From the NCBI GenBank assembly GCA_009783705.1, contig WRCX01000015.1:1-33659 (forward strand): a DNA stretch of 33,659 nt, read 5' to 3'. The stretch's first letter is position 1. Each line of letters starts with the position of its first letter. The position numbers and the translations under genes are program-made. The notes beneath the pieces are model-generated. The model was not told the DNA's origin and did no database searches. It worked only from the letters and a program-made list of their open reading frames with translations. The stretch comes from Candidatus Bathycorpusculum hydrogenotrophicum. Lineage in GTDB: Archaea; Thermoproteota; Bathyarchaeia; Bathyarchaeales; Bathycorpusculaceae. Shown here piece after piece: positions 16,125 to 25,104 of the stretch.

Positions 16125-16254
16125 CCGAGTCTACGATACCCAATTTTTATGGAAGTAGTTTACTCAAAAATCCGGAAGCTAACTTCTGTATTTGCTGTTT
16201 AGGGTTGCAGTAAACTTCATATCAGAACAGACCTATAGCCACAAGGTGGTTGAT

Positions 16255-17076
16255 ATGAAAAAGATCTTTGATGTATTTCTGTTTGTTTTGTTAGTCAGCG
16301 GATTGTGTTTTGCCGCTATATCTTGTATAGATAAAGCACAAGCGCAGAGTGCTTCAAAGAAGCCGGCTGTTCCCGAGTTTAGCGTAGAGTTCATTAATCA
16401 ATCCTATGATGTACCGCCCGCTCAATCAACAGATCCCTTCACAGGCGAAACGATAACCAAACCCGGCTATCACGTAGAAGCAGGAACCATCAAATTTACG
16501 ATTAAAAATCAACCGAATTATTCGGGTTTAATGTACAATATTCGATGCAAAGGGCATTATTCAGACACCTGGACGGAAGCATTCCGTGCTAACGACGGCT
16601 TTCCACTACAGTCGGATTCTGCATATACCGAGATAATCTTTAGCGGTGATGATAGAGGACCTAAGGACAGCTTTAGCAACCTCACGGGTAACTTTGACGG
16701 CACCCATATCGGAGGAGTATTTGCACCTTTTGGCGGGAAAGTAGATTATCAAGTACAAGCCATGAACGGAGTCCTCAAAGCAGACCTAAGTCCACCCATA
16801 GTAGTAATACCCTACTACTTTGAAGGAGAAACAAGTGAGTGGAGTAACACAAAAACCCTAACTATTGGCACACAAAACAATGAAACCCCAAATCAGTCCA
16901 ATACAACCTCATCAGGCTCCACTGATACCTCAGATCAAACAGCTCAAACAGAGATAACAATAGCAGGCCTTAACCTAGCTGAGTTTAGTTTGGTAATTGG
17001 CGTATGCACTGTAATAGGAGTGTTACTTGTTGCACTTGTGTATAAAGGTCGCATTCAATATGCTAAGACGTCATAG
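16255..17076 (+). CDS. Secreted, C-terminally membrane-anchored surface protein (SYDVPP family)
   Basis: A protein of 273 residues from the ATG at 16255, chosen because GGTGG lies about six bases upstream and a signal peptide begins there (MKKIFDVFLFVLLVSGLCFA). An in-frame ATG at 16192 would put 21 residues before the signal. The ectodomain starts with VPEFSVEFINQSYDVPP and continues with the GYHVEAGTIKFTIKNQP stretch, probably beta-sandwich folds. A Ser/Thr/Asn/Gln-rich linker follows (about 205-235). A single C-terminal helix (FSLVIGVCTVIGVLLVALVY) and a short basic tail anchor it with the body outside. I recall similar proteins as paralogues in Bathyarchaeia genomes. The function is unknown. 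Confidence 0.8.
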   Translation: MKKIFDVFLFVLLVSGLCFAAISCIDKAQAQSASKKPAVPEFSVEFINQSYDVPPAQSTDPFTGETITKPGYHVEAGTIKFTIKNQPNYSGLMYNIRCKGHYSDTWTEAFRANDGFPLQSDSAYTEIIFSGDDRGPKDSFSNLTGNFDGTHIGGVFAPFGGKVDYQVQAMNGVLKADLSPPIVVIPYYFEGETSEWSNTKTLTIGTQNNETPNQSNTTSSGSTDTSDQTAQTEITIAGLNLAEFSLVIGVCTVIGVLLVALVYKGRIQYAKTS

Positions 17077-17582
17077 TATAAACGCATAATAATGGGGATT
17101 GTTTCTGTCATCATATCTCTGCGAAATTTTTATGATGAAAGGGGAGAAGGGGTTGAACCGATTTTTTCTGTACGTATAGTTATGTACCTCGCAGATGTTA
17201 AGAATAACTTTTTCTCATCACACATACCCCTAGACCATTTCTGCAAATGATGCGCTTAATGTGCTGTGACCCCCTTTTTCCAGCTCTTTTTAAGCTTTAA
17301 ATCACCAATACGCTTCTGTTTGGGATTGTTTTTTTATAGCACATCCAAAAAATCAAAGCGCTATGAAGTGCTGAAGTGCTGGCGGTATGTTCTGACATTT
17401 CCATAAAGTATGAATTTGGACATCACCTTTAGTGCTCACATAAATGCCATAAGAACCAACAGCACATGTAGCCGCATGTTGTTGTCGATGCTGAAAGTTT
17501 GTTTAAAGACATTTTTGCACGCCATCCGAGCATAGTTTGGCCTTAAACTGAAAGTGTTGTGCAAAAAACAATTTTGCAAACT
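17077..17582. other. Intergenic region upstream of ppx
   Basis: No recognisable gene. A 52-codon frame (17092-17250, plus strand) has no ribosome binding site and resembles nothing known, so I do not call it. No tRNA-like fold or long repeat is apparent. The A/T content rises sharply toward the ppx promoter. Confidence 0.4.
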
Positions 17583-17644
17583 ATATATAATAAATAAACC
17601 AATTTACCGCATATATAATAAATAAAGCACATTTATATAATAAA
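17583..17644 (+). promoter_or_regulatory. Repeated TATA-like elements upstream of ppx
   Basis: The 16-mer ATATATAATAAATAAA occurs at 17583-17598 and again, identical, at 17611-17626, 28 bases apart. A shorter copy, TATATAATAAA, is at 17634-17644. All are good archaeal TATA boxes, lying 19 to 80 bases before the ppx ATG at 17663. They may be alternative promoters or remnants of duplication. Confidence 0.5.
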
Positions 17645-17662
17645 ATTAAAAAGCATACCCTT

Positions 17663-18598
17663 ATGAAGTATGCAATAATTGATCTCGGGTCTAATTCAAC
17701 AAGACTTGCCATCTACAGATATGAAAATGGCAAATTTGATAAAATTTTCAATCAAAAAGAAATTTTGGGACTTGCTGAATATGTTTCAAAAGATGCCTTA
17801 AGCACAAATGGCATCAAGAAAGCATGCGCCGTTCTGAATGATTTTAAAGCAAATGCACTAAACTTTACTGCATTATCCAATATTCATTTGATTGCTACAG
17901 CTTCCCTTAGAAACATTACAAACAAAGACGAAGCCGTAAAACTTATCATTGAGAAAACTGGGTTGACACCAAATGTTCTTGAAGGCGAAACAGAGGCTAC
18001 CTTAGGGTTTGCCGGGGCTTCTCAATATGTAAATTGCGATAACGGAGTAATGATTGACATTGGAGGAGCAAGCACTGAACTTGTGCTCTTCAGAAATTAC
18101 AGAGCTGTAAATCTTATAAGCCTACCAATCGGCTGTTTGAATCTAGCTGTTAAACACGTGAGCGAAATAATACCTAAAAAAAGTGAAATGAAACAGATTA
18201 CAGCAGATATAAGTAACCAATTTTCAAAGATTGATTGGGAAACAGATACAAACTATCCACTGATGATCGGCGTGGGGGGCACACTTCGAGCCGCGCTTAA
18301 ACTGTCTTGTAGCATTTTTGATCTTCCACAGGAACAAAACAGCATTGAAACTCGCTACATAAAGAAAATTACCAAACTTTTGATAGAAAATAAAAACGAT
18401 ATTTACCACACTACATACAAAACTATCCCTGAGCGGTTAATGACTATTTTACCAGGACTGGCTATCCTGCGATATGCAATAAAAAAATTCGAATGTAAGA
18501 CCATAACGGTAAGTGAATACGGTATCCGTGAAGGTTATTTAATGGACAGGGTGCTAAAGAAACATGATGAACCCCCCAACAGTGGCAAACAAAACTGA
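17663..18598 (+). CDS. ppx: Exopolyphosphatase / Ppx-GppA family
   Basis: A 311-residue member of the ASKHA-fold Ppx/GppA family, which hydrolyses inorganic polyphosphate from the end or pppGpp to ppGpp. The first phosphate loop is IIDLGSNSTRLAIYRY (residues 5-20), the central acidic loop VLEGETEATLGFAGA contains the catalytic Glu, and the second phosphate loop is MIDIGGASTELVLF. GVGGTLRAALKL follows near residue 204. It is the short, two-domain form without the C-terminal HD-like domain of E. coli Ppx. It overlaps ppk1 by 35 bases, so the enzyme that makes polyphosphate and one that degrades it are coupled. The codon choice is clearly A/T-rich compared with the his operon. Confidence 0.92.
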   Translation: MKYAIIDLGSNSTRLAIYRYENGKFDKIFNQKEILGLAEYVSKDALSTNGIKKACAVLNDFKANALNFTALSNIHLIATASLRNITNKDEAVKLIIEKTGLTPNVLEGETEATLGFAGASQYVNCDNGVMIDIGGASTELVLFRNYRAVNLISLPIGCLNLAVKHVSEIIPKKSEMKQITADISNQFSKIDWETDTNYPLMIGVGGTLRAALKLSCSIFDLPQEQNSIETRYIKKITKLLIENKNDIYHTTYKTIPERLMTILPGLAILRYAIKKFECKTITVSEYGIREGYLMDRVLKKHDEPPNSGKQN

Positions 18599-20756
18599 TT
18601 TTAATCACTGCATACAAAACAGGGAGCTATCATGGCTGAAGTTCAATGAACGGGTTTTAGAGGAAGCAAACTTTAGTAACAATCCACCATTAGAACGACT
18701 AAGGTTCATCTCTATTTGCAGCAATAACCTTGACGAGTTCTATATGATCCGGGTTGGCAGCCTAACAGACTACATGCTGTTTGCTCCCGAATATTTTGAT
18801 AATAAAACAGGCATGACAGCAAAACAACAACTTGACGCCATATTCAAACAAACAACCTCACTGTATGCACTTAGAGACAACTATTTTTTCACCGTTATAG
18901 AAAATCTAACAAAATTCGAAATTAACCATTTGAGAATGCGTGACCTGAATCATAATGAACAAAAGAAGGTTGAAAAACAATTCATACGGGATATAATGCC
19001 CTTATTGTCCCCACAAATAATTGACAGCCGCCACCCGTTTCCCCATATCGACAATAAACAACTCCATATAGCCGTGACATTGGAACATAAAAACAAATCT
19101 TCGTTTGGATTGATAGCAGTTCCCAAAACATTGGAACGAATTATCTTTCTAGAAGGAACATTTCGCTTTGTCTTATTAGAGGACGTAATTTATTATTTTT
19201 CACATATCGCTTTTAAACCGTATAAAGTACAAAATAAAACAATCCTAACCGTAACCAGAAATGCCGACATTAACACAGAACAAGGCATACTAGACGAGGA
19301 TATCGACTATCGCCAATTTATGCAAAAACTCATTAAAAAACGCCAACGCCTTACACCTGTCAGATTGGAAATTCAGTATGAGGTAAAAAACGCTTTTATC
19401 GAATTTTTCTGCGAAAAACTAAACCTAAAAGATACACAAGTTTTCTTATCTTCCACACCACTTGACCTTAACTATTGTCATAAACTTGAGGAGAAAATAG
19501 AGCTAAAAAACAGAAAAAATTTGGTAAGACCAGTACATACCCCCTGTGATATTTATCCTGTTGACAAAAAAATAAACATAATGAAATACGTTCAAAAGAA
19601 AGATCACCTTTTGTCCTACCCTTATGAGAGCATTTTACCCTTTCTTGAAATGATTAAACAAGCCGCAGAAGATCCAACAGTCTTATCCATAAAAATAACC
19701 CTCTACAGGCTTGATTCCCAGTCTAAACTTGCCGAATCACTGATTCGCGCTGCTGAAAATGGGAAAGAAGTCATTGTACTAATGGAGTTACGTGCTCGAT
19801 TTGATGAAGCCAATAATATCGAATGGTCGAATCGACTAGATGAAGCAGGTTGCCGTGTGATATATGGGCCATCTGGCTATAAGGTACATTCCAAAATATG
19901 TCTGATTACTAAAAAAGAAAACGGAAAAATACAATATATTACGCAAATAGGTACGGGCAACTATAATGAAAAAACTGCAAAACAATATACTGATCTCTCG
20001 TTGATCACAGCAAATCAGGAAATCGGTAAAGATGCGGCCAGATTTTTCAATAACCTTTTACTGGGTAATCATGATGGAGATTATACCCATCTGTGGATAG
20101 CTCCTAATTACTACAAACAGAATATTTTACAATGTATAGAGGCGGAGGAGAAGAAGGCAAAGAATGGTGAAAACGGGAGAATAATTATTAAATGCAACTC
20201 AATCACGGACAAAGACATTATAGTAAAATTAATTGAAGCATCTCAAAGTGGTGTAAAGATTTCCATGATTGTGCGAGGTATCTGTTGCCTGATACCATGT
20301 GTTCCGCAACTTACCGAAAATATCACAATTATCAGTATCATAGGCGAATTTTTGGAACATTCAAGAATTTACTGCTTTGGAGCAGGGGACGACAAAAAAA
20401 TATACATCTCATCGGCTGATTTGATGACAAGAAATACTGAACGTCGTATCGAAATTTCTTGTCCTGTTCTGGATGGGGAACTTCAGCAACGAATTTTTGA
20501 AATGCTAGAAACGATGCTTATGGATAATACAAAAGCATGGGAACAATTTTCAGACGGCAGATATGTGTTGCGTCATTCACCAATAGATCTGCCTATTAAC
20601 TCACAAACGATATTTACAGAGCAAGCCCGTGTCAGCGCCGCTCATATACTTGTTGATAACATGCAAAGCACAAAAGGAACAATAGTATCATCCGATATTA
20701 CCCATATCGGGAGAAAAATCAAAGATATATTTCTGAAATTTCGGGATTCATCGTAA
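18564..20756 (+). CDS. ppk1: Polyphosphate kinase 1
   Basis: A 730-residue PPK1, which reversibly transfers the ATP gamma-phosphate to polyphosphate. The domains are in order: N-terminal helical domain with NRELSWLKFNERVLEEA (19-35), head domain with SRHPFPHIDNK, and two phospholipase-D-like C-terminal domains. The autophosphorylated histidine is His442 (GYKVHSKICLI) and the second active-site histidine is His599 (FLEHSRIYCF). The motif GTGNYNEKTAKQYTDLSL is at 463-480. Length and motifs indicate an intact enzyme. Two adjacent ATG codons (18564, 18567) are possible starts within the end of ppx. PPK1 is mainly bacterial and patchy in archaea, and with the A/T-rich composition this suggests horizontal acquisition of the pair. 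Confidence 0.95.
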   Translation: MMNPPTVANKTDFNHCIQNRELSWLKFNERVLEEANFSNNPPLERLRFISICSNNLDEFYMIRVGSLTDYMLFAPEYFDNKTGMTAKQQLDAIFKQTTSLYALRDNYFFTVIENLTKFEINHLRMRDLNHNEQKKVEKQFIRDIMPLLSPQIIDSRHPFPHIDNKQLHIAVTLEHKNKSSFGLIAVPKTLERIIFLEGTFRFVLLEDVIYYFSHIAFKPYKVQNKTILTVTRNADINTEQGILDEDIDYRQFMQKLIKKRQRLTPVRLEIQYEVKNAFIEFFCEKLNLKDTQVFLSSTPLDLNYCHKLEEKIELKNRKNLVRPVHTPCDIYPVDKKINIMKYVQKKDHLLSYPYESILPFLEMIKQAAEDPTVLSIKITLYRLDSQSKLAESLIRAAENGKEVIVLMELRARFDEANNIEWSNRLDEAGCRVIYGPSGYKVHSKICLITKKENGKIQYITQIGTGNYNEKTAKQYTDLSLITANQEIGKDAARFFNNLLLGNHDGDYTHLWIAPNYYKQNILQCIEAEEKKAKNGENGRIIIKCNSITDKDIIVKLIEASQSGVKISMIVRGICCLIPCVPQLTENITIISIIGEFLEHSRIYCFGAGDDKKIYISSADLMTRNTERRIEISCPVLDGELQQRIFEMLETMLMDNTKAWEQFSDGRYVLRHSPIDLPINSQTIFTEQARVSAAHILVDNMQSTKGTIVSSDITHIGRKIKDIFLKFRDSS

Positions 20757-21078
20757 CACCAAATGACAATACTGCATCAAGCAACTATACACACAATCAA
20801 AGGGAGCAACAGGGTAGAATAAGTGGAAAGTTTGATGGTGACATTAAACAGCTAATCAGTTGGTGCTTCATTTTAGTTTGTTCTATTCTGCGCTAGATGA
20901 GAGCCTTTGATGTGAGCTGTCTAATGTTGTCGCACCACGCTTACCAAAAACCCAGACAATAGTTCTTCGCGAACTACCACCAACTACCCTGCAAAGTTTC
21001 TTTTTTATCAACTATTAAAAATCTATTTATCCTGTCAATAGGACATAACATAAGAAAGCACCGAGAAAGGAATACAAA
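20757..21078. other. Intergenic region between ppk1 and the flavoprotein gene
   Basis: No gene, tRNA or obvious repeat seen. Just before the next gene is GAGAAAGGAA, a plausible ribosome binding site. Confidence 0.4.
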
Positions 21079-21741
21079 ATGGATAAAGAAATAATGGGCA
21101 TATCCGGAAGCCCTGTACCAAATAGCAATACTGATAGGTTTATTATGCATATACTAAAATCCAGCGGACTGAGCTATGATTTTGTCAAATTAAGCGACAT
21201 CACAGTAAGACCCTGCCGAGCATGTAAAGCCTGCGTCAAAGACAACATCTGCAAAATTAATGACGATTTCCCAGAACTTGCCAAAAAGCTACTAACATCT
21301 AAAGCCATTGTTATCGGCGGATACGCACCATACCGTATGATAGATGGCTACACAAAAGCATTCATCGAAAGATTATGGTCAATGAGACATTTACATAGTT
21401 TAAATCAAAGCAGAATTGCGGTAACAGTCGTATCAAGCATAGAGACCTCAACTGCTCAGAAGGTGCTTTCGAGTTTGGCTGTTGTTATGCAGATGGAAAA
21501 GTTTAACCATGTAGCGCAGTTTCACATTGGCGGCAACGTGGCTTGCCTGACATGCGGCGTTGGAGGGGTCTGCAATGTCAGTGGGGCTAGACGCTTGTTT
21601 GGGCCGGATGCGGACATTTCAAAAGATTTATGCATTGCTGTCGAAACGTTACCTGTCTGGGAACAGGGCGGTCAGATTGGTTCTTTAATAGGACGCTACA
21701 TAAAAGGTGAAACAGAAACGCTACCATCGGTTAAACTTTAA
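21079..21741 (+). CDS. Iron-sulfur flavoprotein / NADPH-dependent FMN reductase-like protein
   Basis: A 220-residue flavodoxin-fold protein. The FMN phosphate loop is GISGSPVPNSNTDR (residues 7-20). The cysteine cluster Cys46-x2-Cys49-x2-Cys52-x5-Cys58 (CRACKACVKDNIC) matches the compact 4Fe-4S motif of archaeal iron-sulfur flavoproteins (Isf). A second Cys pair (CLTCGVGGVC) lies around residues 156-165. Such proteins pass electrons from ferredoxin or NAD(P)H to oxygen species, quinones or other acceptors; the donor and acceptor here are unknown. It is monocistronic and followed about 100 bases later by an intrinsic-terminator-like hairpin. Confidence 0.82.
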   Translation: MDKEIMGISGSPVPNSNTDRFIMHILKSSGLSYDFVKLSDITVRPCRACKACVKDNICKINDDFPELAKKLLTSKAIVIGGYAPYRMIDGYTKAFIERLWSMRHLHSLNQSRIAVTVVSSIETSTAQKVLSSLAVVMQMEKFNHVAQFHIGGNVACLTCGVGGVCNVSGARRLFGPDADISKDLCIAVETLPVWEQGGQIGSLIGRYIKGETETLPSVKL

Positions 21742-22155
21742 AGCTGATACTTCGTTGCCATCTTAGGCTTTTTCCACATTGTTTAACAAGCAGTATATGT
21801 GTAAAAGGTGGAACAAAATCGGTATTTGAAGTATTCTTCGTGAAAAAGCCCTGAAACGGGGCTTTTATCACGCAACTTCAAACCTTTTTCTTTAAATAAA
21901 TTTACTTCCAACGGAAAGGCTGTCAAAATGTCTATTGAAATAACCGTACAAAAAGTATATAACCGGTTTGGATGTTTCTCGACAAGTAAAACCAGAGATT
22001 TTCTTGTCCGTAAGACAAGTTGATGGCGATTTAGGGTATTATGGACGTATCATCGGAGCAATATCTGTTTGTGGGAAGTTATTTATAAGCAAAAAATGTT
22101 TGCAATAGAAATACAAAATATTGCAAGTTTTTAATAAAAAAAGATATTGGGGGGG
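21742..22155. other. Intergenic region between the flavoprotein and phosphatase genes
   Basis: It contains a hairpin at 21844-21866. A 31-codon frame starts at the ATG of AAAATGTCTATTGAAATAAC (about 21928), and a short inverted repeat CTTGTC-CGTAA-GACAAG lies at 22003-22019. The composition around 21930-22080 looks partly codon-like, so it may be a gene relic, but I recognise no family. Confidence 0.35.
21844..21866 (+). terminator. Bacterial-style hairpin terminator
   Basis: AAAAGCCC (21844-21851) and GGGCTTTT (21859-21866) form a perfect 8-base stem with a 7-base loop, ending in a T run. This is the shape of a bacterial rho-independent terminator with an A tract on one side and a T tract on the other, so it could work in both directions. 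It lies about 100 bases after the flavoprotein stop. Archaeal termination usually needs only T runs. Confidence 0.55.
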
Positions 22156-24078
22156 TTACCATGTGATGTTTTTGAGGATGAGGATCAAGTCTTCGATATC
22201 GACTCGGCCGTCACCGTTAACATCAGCACGCTTAGCAGCATTCCAGTTAGCATCGCCCTCTTTAGCCATAAAGAACAACTGAGCAGCAGTCAAATCAAGC
22301 TGATCAACAACACCATCACGATTAACATCATACTTTGAAAAGTATTGACCAATAGATGTTTGTACAAGTCCATTTGCTATCAAAGAATCAATATAGACCG
22401 CCACATCCGCATCATCATAGCCGCTTAAGACAGCATCAACCAACCTAACATCAGTAGTTCCAAGCAAGTTACTGTTTGATGCCAACACCATCTCAAAAAT
22501 ATCCAAAGCACCAGCAGCACTACTTACACCGCCATTAAAGTTGACAAGAGTAACACGACCCGTCCAAACACCAGTGCTATCCCGAGTCCACGCAACATCA
22601 CCAAGGACCTCAAAGCCATTAAGACCAGTGAAAGATTTACCGCTAAAGTATGCGCCGTCAACTTCAAACTGAAGAGTAACCGTAGCAAGCTTGCTTACAT
22701 CACTAACAGAAACAGTGTATGTAGCGTCATTACCAACAACAACATCGGTAGCGCCACTCAAAGCAACAACAGCAGACACGGGGACATTAATGGTTTTGGC
22801 AATAGTGTAGGAGTCTATTATACTAAGAGTGTTATCCGCGTTCACCTGATAAGTAGTGCAGGTGAAGGAGCTGGCAGTCATATCCACAATGCTAAACATC
22901 GGGCGGTTGTTCTGGTGCATAACTGCAGTGTAAGGTTGTTGCGCCACTAAGCTATAGTATTTTTGGCCGCTTGCGGAGTTGAGGGAGAAGTAGACAGTGC
23001 CGGTTAAGTCGGTGGCTTTGCCGTCAATCAGGTTTTCAGGTTGCATACCCAGGGTATTTGAAGTGCTGGAGTTGCCAGACCATTTCATTGGATATGAACG
23101 ACTGTAAGAGTGGTCATGTCCGTTAAATACGACATCGATACCGAACTCGTCAATCACAGGAACATATGTATCTCTGTAGTTTTTGCCGTCTGAGAGGGCG
23201 TGCGAACTGCCTTGACCGTATACGTCATAGTGGAAATTGAGGATTCTCCAAGTTGCATCCGGATTTGCGTCAATCGCATTTTGCAAAAAGTTCCTCATGC
23301 CAGCCGCGTTACCAGTGGTAGAATCCCAAACCATAAACAGGGTATCACCATATCGGTACCAATAGTCCACCACGTCCGCCCCGCCGTTTGTGTTTGGTGG
23401 GTTATAAAAGACATGTGGTGCTGTGCCTGAACCTTCGTGGTTACCCATGCATGTAGCTAGAGGTAGAGATGAGAAGATTGACTGGGGTGTGAAGAAGTAA
23501 TCATACTGAGCTCTGGTGTTAGAATCAATGTTGTCACCAGTGCTGGCCATAAAAGCAACATCAGAGTTCACGCCAAGAGCCAGTTCCAAAGTGTTTTTCC
23601 AGTTGTTACCATAGGTTTGACTGGAGACCTGTGGGTCACCGAACACTATATAGCTGAATGAGTCAGGGGTACCTGTTTTGGTGGTGTATTCAACACTCCA
23701 GTTGTCATTGCCGTCACCAAGTTGGTAAGTATAGGCGGTATTGGTCTCAAGACCAGTTACGGTAACTCTATTATAATACATGGTGCTAAGAGAGGACGGC
23801 GCGGCGCTACTTGTGCCAGTAAATTCAATTGCCTCGCTATATTGTTGCCATATACGGACAACAGGGTTATCAGCCTTGTCTGCGGTGTGCCATGAAAAAG
23901 TGAGCTGAGTCGCATCTGATCCTGGAGCCAGCGTCAGATAGCTTACATCCAGGGCTGTTGCTGCGGTAGCGTAGGGTAATGCCGCTACTATCATGCTAAA
24001 AAGAACGCAGATAGTCAGAGCAAAAGATAACATTTTTTTATTATTTTTTGTTTGTAACTTCATTTCAATTTTACCCAT
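22156..24078 (-). CDS. Secreted purple-acid-phosphatase-like metallophosphoesterase with cohesin-like and dockerin domains
   Basis: A 640-residue exported protein. A signal peptide spans about 1-40 (MLSFALTICVLFSMIVAALP, cut near ATA-AT). A fibronectin-like purple acid phosphatase N-domain follows (about 43-133). The calcineurin-like phosphatase domain (about 140-400) has metal ligands Asp148 (FGDPQ), Asp182 (GDNID), Asn213 and His214 (MGNHE), His283 (NFHYD), and His321 and His323 (NGHDHSYSR). Residues about 430-560 resemble a cohesin-type beta sandwich. The C-terminus is a type I dockerin with two calcium loops, DVNRDGVVDQLDL (584-596) and DVNGDGRVDIEDL (619-631). It probably releases phosphate outside the cell while attached through the dockerin to a cohesin partner. 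It is transcribed away from the truncated anchored protein upstream. Confidence 0.88.
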   Translation of the reverse strand: MGKIEMKLQTKNNKKMLSFALTICVLFSMIVAALPYATAATALDVSYLTLAPGSDATQLTFSWHTADKADNPVVRIWQQYSEAIEFTGTSSAAPSSLSTMYYNRVTVTGLETNTAYTYQLGDGNDNWSVEYTTKTGTPDSFSYIVFGDPQVSSQTYGNNWKNTLELALGVNSDVAFMASTGDNIDSNTRAQYDYFFTPQSIFSSLPLATCMGNHEGSGTAPHVFYNPPNTNGGADVVDYWYRYGDTLFMVWDSTTGNAAGMRNFLQNAIDANPDATWRILNFHYDVYGQGSSHALSDGKNYRDTYVPVIDEFGIDVVFNGHDHSYSRSYPMKWSGNSSTSNTLGMQPENLIDGKATDLTGTVYFSLNSASGQKYYSLVAQQPYTAVMHQNNRPMFSIVDMTASSFTCTTYQVNADNTLSIIDSYTIAKTINVPVSAVVALSGATDVVVGNDATYTVSVSDVSKLATVTLQFEVDGAYFSGKSFTGLNGFEVLGDVAWTRDSTGVWTGRVTLVNFNGGVSSAAGALDIFEMVLASNSNLLGTTDVRLVDAVLSGYDDADVAVYIDSLIANGLVQTSIGQYFSKYDVNRDGVVDQLDLTAAQLFFMAKEGDANWNAAKRADVNGDGRVDIEDLILILKNITW

Positions 24079-24403
24079 ACAAATTTTAAGAAAGCAAACG
24101 CTTTCTAAGAAGTAAAATCCAAAACGCTGATTATAAAAAATATGTTAATAGATTCAATATCTATATTGTCTCCATATTTTTCTATAAAAAATACATATTC
24201 ATTAAGGTAAATAGCGGCAGCCCCGTTAGTGCAAACACTGAAAAAGTTCACAAATCAAATAAACAGTTAACCAACTATACTTTCTGTCTCTTTCAATATG
24301 CAATAGAAACTTGCTAACAACTCTATACATCAGCCAGAACAAAGAGGACAAACCACAACTTCAAAACAGAATGACCCAAGAAAAAAAGTGTAGACGGTTT
24401 ATT
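24079..24403. other. Intergenic region upstream of the phosphatase gene
   Basis: A/T-rich; it should hold the phosphatase promoter (several TATA-like tracts around 24135-24200, minus strand). I see no gene or RNA. Confidence 0.4.
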
Positions 24404-24982
24404 TTATTGGATGTTGGTACGCTTTTTCATGATAACAAAAACACCAATGCCGCAAACCGCAACAACCAAAAGCACAAGGGCAATCCAAAAACCAACCGAC
24501 AAACCAGAATCTTTTGAATTATCCACCAATAAATCATGGGCAGCAATTAACGAAGCACTATCATCATCTGCCGATGAATCCTTGTCGCCAATTGACGATG
24601 CGTTATCATCATCTACCGACGAACCCTTAGCACCAATTGATGACCCGCCATTAGCGCCATCTCCCGACGAACCCTTAGCACCATCCACCGATAAACCTCC
24701 AGAACTATTTTCAGGCAATACTTTGATTTCAACAGGGGCGAGAAACTCACTACGGGTCTCACCATTATCAACAATCTGCGCCAATTTAATCTCTGTCAGA
24801 GTAACTTTTTGAGAATCATCATTTAAACAATTAAAAACGAGATAACCTACATCTAGTTTACCATCTTTAGGTACATACTTGTTATCTGCATTATAAAATC
24901 CCACAGAAGTATAGCCATTTTTCACCACAACCGGCGTAGTTAAAGCTGAGGAAACAGCCGATGATTTTTCATAAGCACTCGC
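24404..24982 (-). pseudogene. 5'-truncated membrane-anchored surface protein (cohesin-like end, linker, TM)
   Basis: The frame is open from just after a TAA at 24983-24985. It carries the end of an extracellular beta-sandwich (KLDVGYLVFNCLNDDSQKVT, then TEIKLAQIVDNGETRSEF) that resembles the last strands of a cohesin. A linker of near-repeats rich in Gly, Ser and Asp follows (GAKGSS, GDGANGG, GAKGSSVDDD, GDKDSSADDD). It finishes with one transmembrane helix (VGFWIALVLLVVAVCGIGVF) and the basic tail MKKRTN. There is no signal peptide, and the first possible starts (GTG near 24928) lie inside the domain, so the 5' part seems lost. tRNA-Ala lies 49 bases further upstream, which suggests a deletion or insertion beside the tRNA. 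If translated from GTG it would make a 174-residue fragment. Confidence 0.6.
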
Positions 24983-25030
24983 TTAAGAGTGAAAAGCGAT
25001 GTAACGAACTACCAACAAAACTAAGAAAAG

Positions 25031-25104
25031 TGGACCGGGGGGGATTTGAACCCCCGACCTCTTGATTGCAAATCAAGCGTTCATACCAGCTGAACTACCG
25101 GCCC
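25031..25104 (-). tRNA. tRNA-Ala (anticodon UGC)
   Basis: A 74-base tRNA without an intron and without an encoded CCA. The acceptor stem GGGCCGG pairs with CCGGTCC. It includes the G3:U70 wobble pair that identifies tRNA-Ala, and the discriminator is A. The D stem is GTTC/GAAC, the anticodon arm CTTGA-TTTGCAA-TCAAG gives anticodon TGC, and the T arm is GGGGG-TTCAAAT-CCCCC. A TATA-like TAAATATC (25130-25137, minus strand) lies about 29 bases before the 5' end. Confidence 0.97.

Follow-up and report, generated by a model that had tools for sequence, protein, structure and literature searches.

A divergent, likely cohesin anchor and its candidate X-dockerin cargo proteins in termite-gut Bathyarchaeia

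Cohesin-dockerin pairs have been described in several prokaryotic lineages. In Archaeoglobus fulgidus, binding between the cohesin of ORF2376 and the dockerin of ORF2375 was reported to be strong and specific (PMC9705933). Non-cellulosic cohesin and dockerin proteins are common in ANME archaea, where they are extracellular and have been proposed to function in surface attachment; some of the proteins contain as many as five cohesins, and dockerins are carried by the binding proteins of ABC transporters (PMC9012536). In CipA/ScaA of Clostridium thermocellum, an X module together with a type II dockerin binds a surface-anchored cohesin (PMC5141474). The locus presented here comes from a MAG of the Candidatus Bathycorpusculum type (genome G000; 2.24 Mb, completeness 96%), which belongs to Bathyarchaeia living in termite guts (PMC10684969). 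The window, i.e., the whole stretch of 33,659 nucleotides that was analysed, is contig 15 of this genome. A literature search found no paper on cohesins or dockerins in Bathycorpusculum, and Loh et al. (2021) make no mention of them. For comparison, we surveyed 91 genomes from the same family and 257 from the whole class Bathyarchaeia.

The window encodes a putative secreted phosphatase that ends in a dockerin, with the following features:

22156..24078 (-), secreted metallophosphatase-X-dockerin protein of 640 aa, intact ORF
23959..24078 (-), approximate, signal-peptide-like hydrophobic N-terminal segment, assigned by reading the sequence
23674..23937 (-), purple-acid-phosphatase N-terminal (fn3-like) domain, residues 48-135 (PF16656 Pur_ac_phosph_N, 7.2e-16)
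23104..23649 (-), calcineurin-like metallophosphoesterase domain, residues 144-325 (PF00149 Metallophos, 1.1e-9)
22369..22779 (-), X module, a conserved beta-rich region of ~140 residues between enzyme and dockerin, cohesin-like or Ig-like
22168..22332 (-), type I dockerin, residues 583-637 (PF00404 Dockerin_1, 2.9e-8)

This agrees with the initial annotation, which had read a secreted phosphatase with a two-loop dockerin in the DNA. Both calcium loops, DVNRDGVVDQLD and DVNGDGRVDIED, are canonical, and the duplicated loop D-x-N-x-D-G-x-x-[DN]-x-x-D that marks a type I dockerin is kept in all 12 dockerins of this kind that we found. In known dockerins, positions 10-11 determine specificity; here they are QL and IE, invariant in 12/12 X-dockerin tails. 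The catalytic part belongs to the metallophosphoesterase superfamily by PF00149 and by its GD, GNHE, H and GHxH motifs, and all of its metal motifs are present (GDPQ, GDNID, GNHE, NFHYD, GHDH). It resembles purple acid phosphatases in the N-terminal domain and in the GNHE, histidine and GHDH motifs. Among the five motifs of those enzymes, however, GDxxY is occupied by GDNID, and because its tyrosine is replaced, a purple Fe-tyrosinate enzyme is not expected.

The region before the dockerin (residues ~434-570) had been read as a cohesin-like domain of the phosphatase's own, and that it is a cohesin we could not confirm. Pfam gives no match there; a profile of X against 40 Bathyarchaeal cohesins scores weakly, with 5 of 200 shuffles equally good; and an AlphaFold model of the X-dockerin tail is poor (pLDDT 45), its fold search returning unrelated immunoglobulin-type matches and no cohesin. 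PDB entries 2b59 and 3kcp are among the top matches of the tail profile. X adjoins the dockerin in 12/12 loci and, across the 257 class genomes, never occurs apart from this dockerin. One alternative is that X is in fact a cohesin bound by the dockerin of the next cargo, so that enzymes would form chains for which a membrane anchor is merely the end point. Such chains would suit the beta-rich character of X and its constant attachment to the dockerin; in other Bathyarchaeia, moreover, a cohesin does stand beside a dockerin within one protein (L021, L022), and these cohesins are the best, though weak, profile matches of X. We nevertheless hold this to be improbable, as the profile match does no better than shuffles, the model resembles no cohesin, and chains leave the constant company of the tail and the anchor described below unexplained. 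The likeness to C. thermocellum, where X also directly precedes a dockerin for a surface cohesin, is at least one of arrangement; there the X-dockerin ends a multi-cohesin scaffold for polysaccharide breakdown, whereas in Bathycorpusculum it is fused straight to single cargoes.

Directly upstream of the phosphatase, on the same strand, lies the remnant of a membrane-anchored protein, of which the genome has an intact paralogue on contig C20:

24404..24979 (-), 5'-truncated gene of a membrane-anchored cohesin-like protein
24707..24976 (-), divergent cohesin-like domain, the part that is left (matching profile positions 34-123 of 123, E 5.0e-47)
24485..24706 (-), Gly/Ser/Asp-rich linker of the remnant
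24428..24484 (-), C-terminal transmembrane helix of the remnant (hydropathy 3.16), followed by KKR
G000:C20:11137-11922 (+) (L004:5138-5926), intact anchor paralogue, beside the second phosphatase-X-dockerin
L004:6392-8434, second phosphatase-X-dockerin of G000, contig C20

The window copy lacks the ~67 N-terminal residues of its relatives, a stretch that comprises the signal peptide and the first part of the cohesin-like domain. Intact relatives are ~255 aa long in total, with a signal peptide and a full ectodomain of ~120 residues. The linker, the transmembrane helix and the truncation that the initial annotation had proposed are thus real, and the cohesin identity that it had offered as a possibility is backed by a profile match and a low-confidence model. 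In profile-profile comparison with 40 Bathyarchaeal cohesin domains, the anchor aligns over 91 columns with a score of 24.6, above all 200 column-shuffled cohesin profiles (maximum 17.7). An AlphaFold model built from a four-sequence alignment (low confidence, pLDDT 55) has the Archaeoglobus cohesin 2xdh as its first PDB fold match (E 6.8e-4), and cohesins make up eight of the top nine matches at a TM of about 0.5. Pfam cohesin and a genome-scale Bathyarchaeal cohesin profile both miss the anchor, a search of PDB sequences with the anchor profile found nothing, and the homology between the ectodomain and X is weak (P about 0.04). From these comparisons, the ectodomain is likely a divergent cohesin. 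For the anchor, then, a cohesin-like fold is predicted, if at low confidence, and the genome does hold a candidate partner. A further surface protein of G000 (L044, G000:C28:26073-26342, at a contig end) has an Asp/Ser-rich linker and a C-terminal transmembrane helix like those of the anchor.

Each anchor has a single cohesin-like domain, and the scaffold with many cohesins that defines a cellulosome is not seen; the probable docking partner is a membrane anchor with one likely cohesin instead of the scaffold first envisaged. This resembles the Archaeoglobus pair, which is likewise archaeal, has one cohesin and one dockerin encoded by consecutively numbered genes, and provides the top fold match of the anchor. 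The Bathycorpusculum system differs from it in its likely but much diverged cohesin, in the conserved linker-transmembrane anchor and in a dockerin tail that includes an X module and goes with four or more exchangeable kinds of cargo. With the archaeal proteins of ANME it shares non-cellulosic cargo and a proposed extracellular role in surface attachment, but each of its anchors has a single cohesin-like domain, and it consists of one matched pair. Other Bathyarchaeia encode canonical single-cohesin transmembrane proteins:

L066:1390-2052 and L068:1363-2025, canonical single-cohesin transmembrane proteins of ~220 aa

Like the anchor with its single likely cohesin, these have a signal peptide, one cohesin and a C-terminal transmembrane helix. 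They match Pfam cohesin well, whereas the anchor family gives no such match, and its Gly/Ser/Asp linker is long. Their conserved neighbour gene encodes a secreted or transmembrane protein with a helix-turn-helix end. The same genus also encodes large surface proteins in which two cohesins flank a dockerin (L063, L064 and L061, in G032:C36, G021:C113 and G038:C12), a separate cohesin/dockerin system.

Among the 91 family and 257 class genomes, the same nine carry both the anchor and the X-dockerin, and neither was found in any other genome. There are 12 anchors and 12 X-dockerins, with equal copy number within each of the nine. Random coincidence would have a probability of 1/C(257,9) = 8.5e-17, or 3.6e-8 within the genus, figures uncorrected for relatedness. 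The distances between anchors parallel those between tails (r = 0.81 for X and 0.72 for the dockerin, with 0 of 10,000 permutations as high), which shared ancestry can partly explain; all nine carriers belong to one genus, and this inflates both the co-occurrence and the mirror-tree figures. Anchor and cargo genes are adjacent on the same strand in 9 of the 12 pairs, with either gene first; two further pairs (G012 type II and G036) are cut by contig ends, and the anchor at G012:C64 stands without a neighbouring cargo gene. Because it is co-conserved over 12 loci, the layout of dockerin enzyme and anchor is not due to chance. Neither the tail nor the anchor was found in the viral contigs searched.

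Could the anchor be a receptor, an adhesin or some other independent surface protein encoded in the cluster, with the dockerin binding another, undetected partner? That both cohesin profiles miss the anchor would fit, yet we judge this highly improbable in view of the exact co-distribution, the equal copy number, the adjacency in both orders and the cohesin-like fold and profile matches. Pfam cohesins occur in 92 of the 257 Bathyarchaeia genomes, but a Pfam search found none in six of the nine anchor-bearing genomes; over the whole of G000, neither Pfam nor the Bathyarchaeal cohesin profile found a cohesin. Four genomes (G000, G020, G035, G036) have no Pfam cohesin and, at E <= 1e-5, no dockerin besides the X-dockerins, and the anchor is therefore the visible partner there.

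The window cassette itself lies in a segment with unusual borders:

16154..24990, segment of ~8.8 kb with a secreted/transmembrane ORF of no assigned family, ppx, ppk1, an FMN reductase gene and the anchor/phosphatase cassette
17663..18598 (+), exopolyphosphatase Ppx/GppA (PF02541, 8.6e-45)
18564..20756 (+), polyphosphate kinase 1 (four PP_kinase Pfam domains)
24976..24990, sharp homology junction, anchor/cassette homology stopping at 24975
25030..25104 (-), tRNA-Ala (TGC), next to the junction

Beginning at 24991, the sequence follows, tRNA-Ala included, a locus that in another species lacks the cassette, and the two are collinear. The segment is missing from G032:C3 and G009:C1, both collinear on either side of it, and its flanks are about 1 kb apart in G032 and 0.3 kb apart in G009. 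Because the flanks are nearly joined in these genomes, the ~8.8 kb represents an insertion or rearrangement in the G000 lineage, unless the assembly is chimeric. The segment ends ~40 bp past the 3' end of the tRNA-Ala; no att-like repeats were found at its ends, and no integrase was seen. We had also considered that the anchor was truncated by a deletion between short direct repeats, and rejected this since the flank matches the tRNA-Ala region of another species and not the promoter of the anchor itself.

With its anchor lacking the signal peptide and the domain start, the window cassette might be decayed, the anchor a pseudogene and the phosphatase a free secreted enzyme. This seems quite unlikely to us: the reading frame of the phosphatase is uninterrupted and keeps every metal motif as well as the two calcium loops, and an intact anchor is present on C20. 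The window phosphatase most likely uses that C20 anchor, as its own is broken and the predicted recognition residues of the two G000 tails are identical. An archaeal dockerin enzyme next to an anchored cohesin, as originally proposed, is strongly upheld by the relatives, while in the window the neighbouring anchor is broken and the working copy lies elsewhere.

Four kinds of cargo carry the X-dockerin tail as a fusion across the 12 loci:

Cargo 1, window-type phosphatase, in G000, G010, G012 (frameshifted) and G020
Cargo 2, second phosphatase family, ~38% identical to that of the window, in G000 (C20) and G036
Cargo 3, PHP-domain protein (phosphoesterase), in G021 and G032
Cargo 4, repeat-rich surface protein, weakly GLUG-like, in G010, G011, G012 and G035
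L047:2173-3018, L046:1289-2101, L055:9952-10779 and L050:2284-3135, ModA-like solute-binding protein genes

The frameshift splits the G012 phosphatase into two overlapping ORFs (L048, G012:C144, 1759-3668). A ModA-like gene precedes each repeat-rich cargo, an assignment with its Pfam basis in the L047 copy only. The polysaccharide-degrading cargo of cellulosomes is not represented among these metallophosphatases, PHP proteins and repeat-rich proteins.

The nearby polyphosphate genes had suggested a phosphorus theme. In its full form, this would make the segment a phosphorus-acquisition island, in which a surface phosphatase frees phosphate, Ppx and PPK1 store and mobilise it, and docking keeps it near the cell. 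Such an island would account for the predicted phosphohydrolases among the cargoes (8/12), for the proximity of both G000 phosphatase cassettes to ppk and ppx, and for the presence of the window cassette and ppx-ppk1 within one inserted 8.8 kb segment. The other 4 of the 12 cargoes, on the other hand, are repeat-rich non-phosphatases whose gene neighbour encodes a ModA-like binding protein; in the genus at large, ppk is frequent with or without the system (18/32); and no ppk lies near the cassettes of G021 and G010:C63. The non-phosphatase cargoes and the commonness of ppk weaken the island as an entire explanation, which we regard as unlikely, and a specific phosphorus role is weakly supported. 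A phosphorus theme is possible, yet the observations do not require one. The system is not limited to the phosphate scavenging foreseen in the initial annotation, as PHP-domain proteins and a repeat-rich protein also bear this tail.

Catalytic parts and tails have been recombined: between G021 and G032, the PHP parts share 89% identity and the tails only 74%, whereas at the trp-ppk locus the tail of the G032 PHP protein is 85% identical to that of the G000 phosphatase. In anchor-bearing genomes, the X-dockerin is present on 6/6 genes of the two phosphatase families; in anchor-free genomes, 3/3 genes of the same families (G009, G039) end in a different tail of ~70 aa (p = 0.012). This alternative C-terminal tail ends like YVDTKGNTQIRDC (L006:8004-9695, L096, L104, L100, L008:5354-6874). 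It is also found on the same phosphatases in a termite-gut Propionibacteriaceae MAG (catalytic part 60% identical, tail 68%), an occurrence due to either gene transfer or a binning error.

Taken together, we consider a membrane-tethered socket with a single cohesin, displaying interchangeable X-dockerin cargo, to be the best explanation, and a probable one. A signal peptide would direct export of the anchor, a single C-terminal helix would fix it in the membrane, and the flexible Gly/Ser/Asp linker would extend one divergent cohesin outward. Exported cargo would end in the X module and a calcium-loaded dockerin, which, probably together with X, would bind the anchored cohesin in a presumably calcium-dependent manner, and so keep the cargo and its predicted enzyme activity at the cell surface. 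New cargoes may be acquired through gene fusion to the X-dockerin tail. Since QL and IE are invariant in 12/12 tails, any anchor may take any cargo. More tentatively, and at somewhat less than an even chance, this could be a general plug-and-socket display of gut Bathyarchaeia, with a universal connector gained by fusion, any anchor for any cargo, and orthogonal to the canonical cohesins of the genus.

An archaeal use outside polysaccharide hydrolysis, which had been put forward as a different one, has precedents in pairs already published (PMC9012536, PMC9705933). Because archaeal cohesin-dockerin pairs are already known, the system is a variant of known archaeal biology; what appears to be new is that gut Bathyarchaeia have a compact and diverged pair, anchor and X-dockerin, whose cargo is exchangeable. 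Little is known of how archaea retain enzymes at their surface, or of what their cohesins and dockerins do beyond cellulose breakdown. The system described here is made of few parts: four genomes have no dockerins besides these, and no cohesin apart from the anchor was detected in them, so that both partner and cargo can be named. The presence of the X-dockerin or of another tail on the same enzymes, tracking that of the anchor, makes the genus a natural experiment on domain exchange, and the pair could serve as a connector in archaeal surface display.
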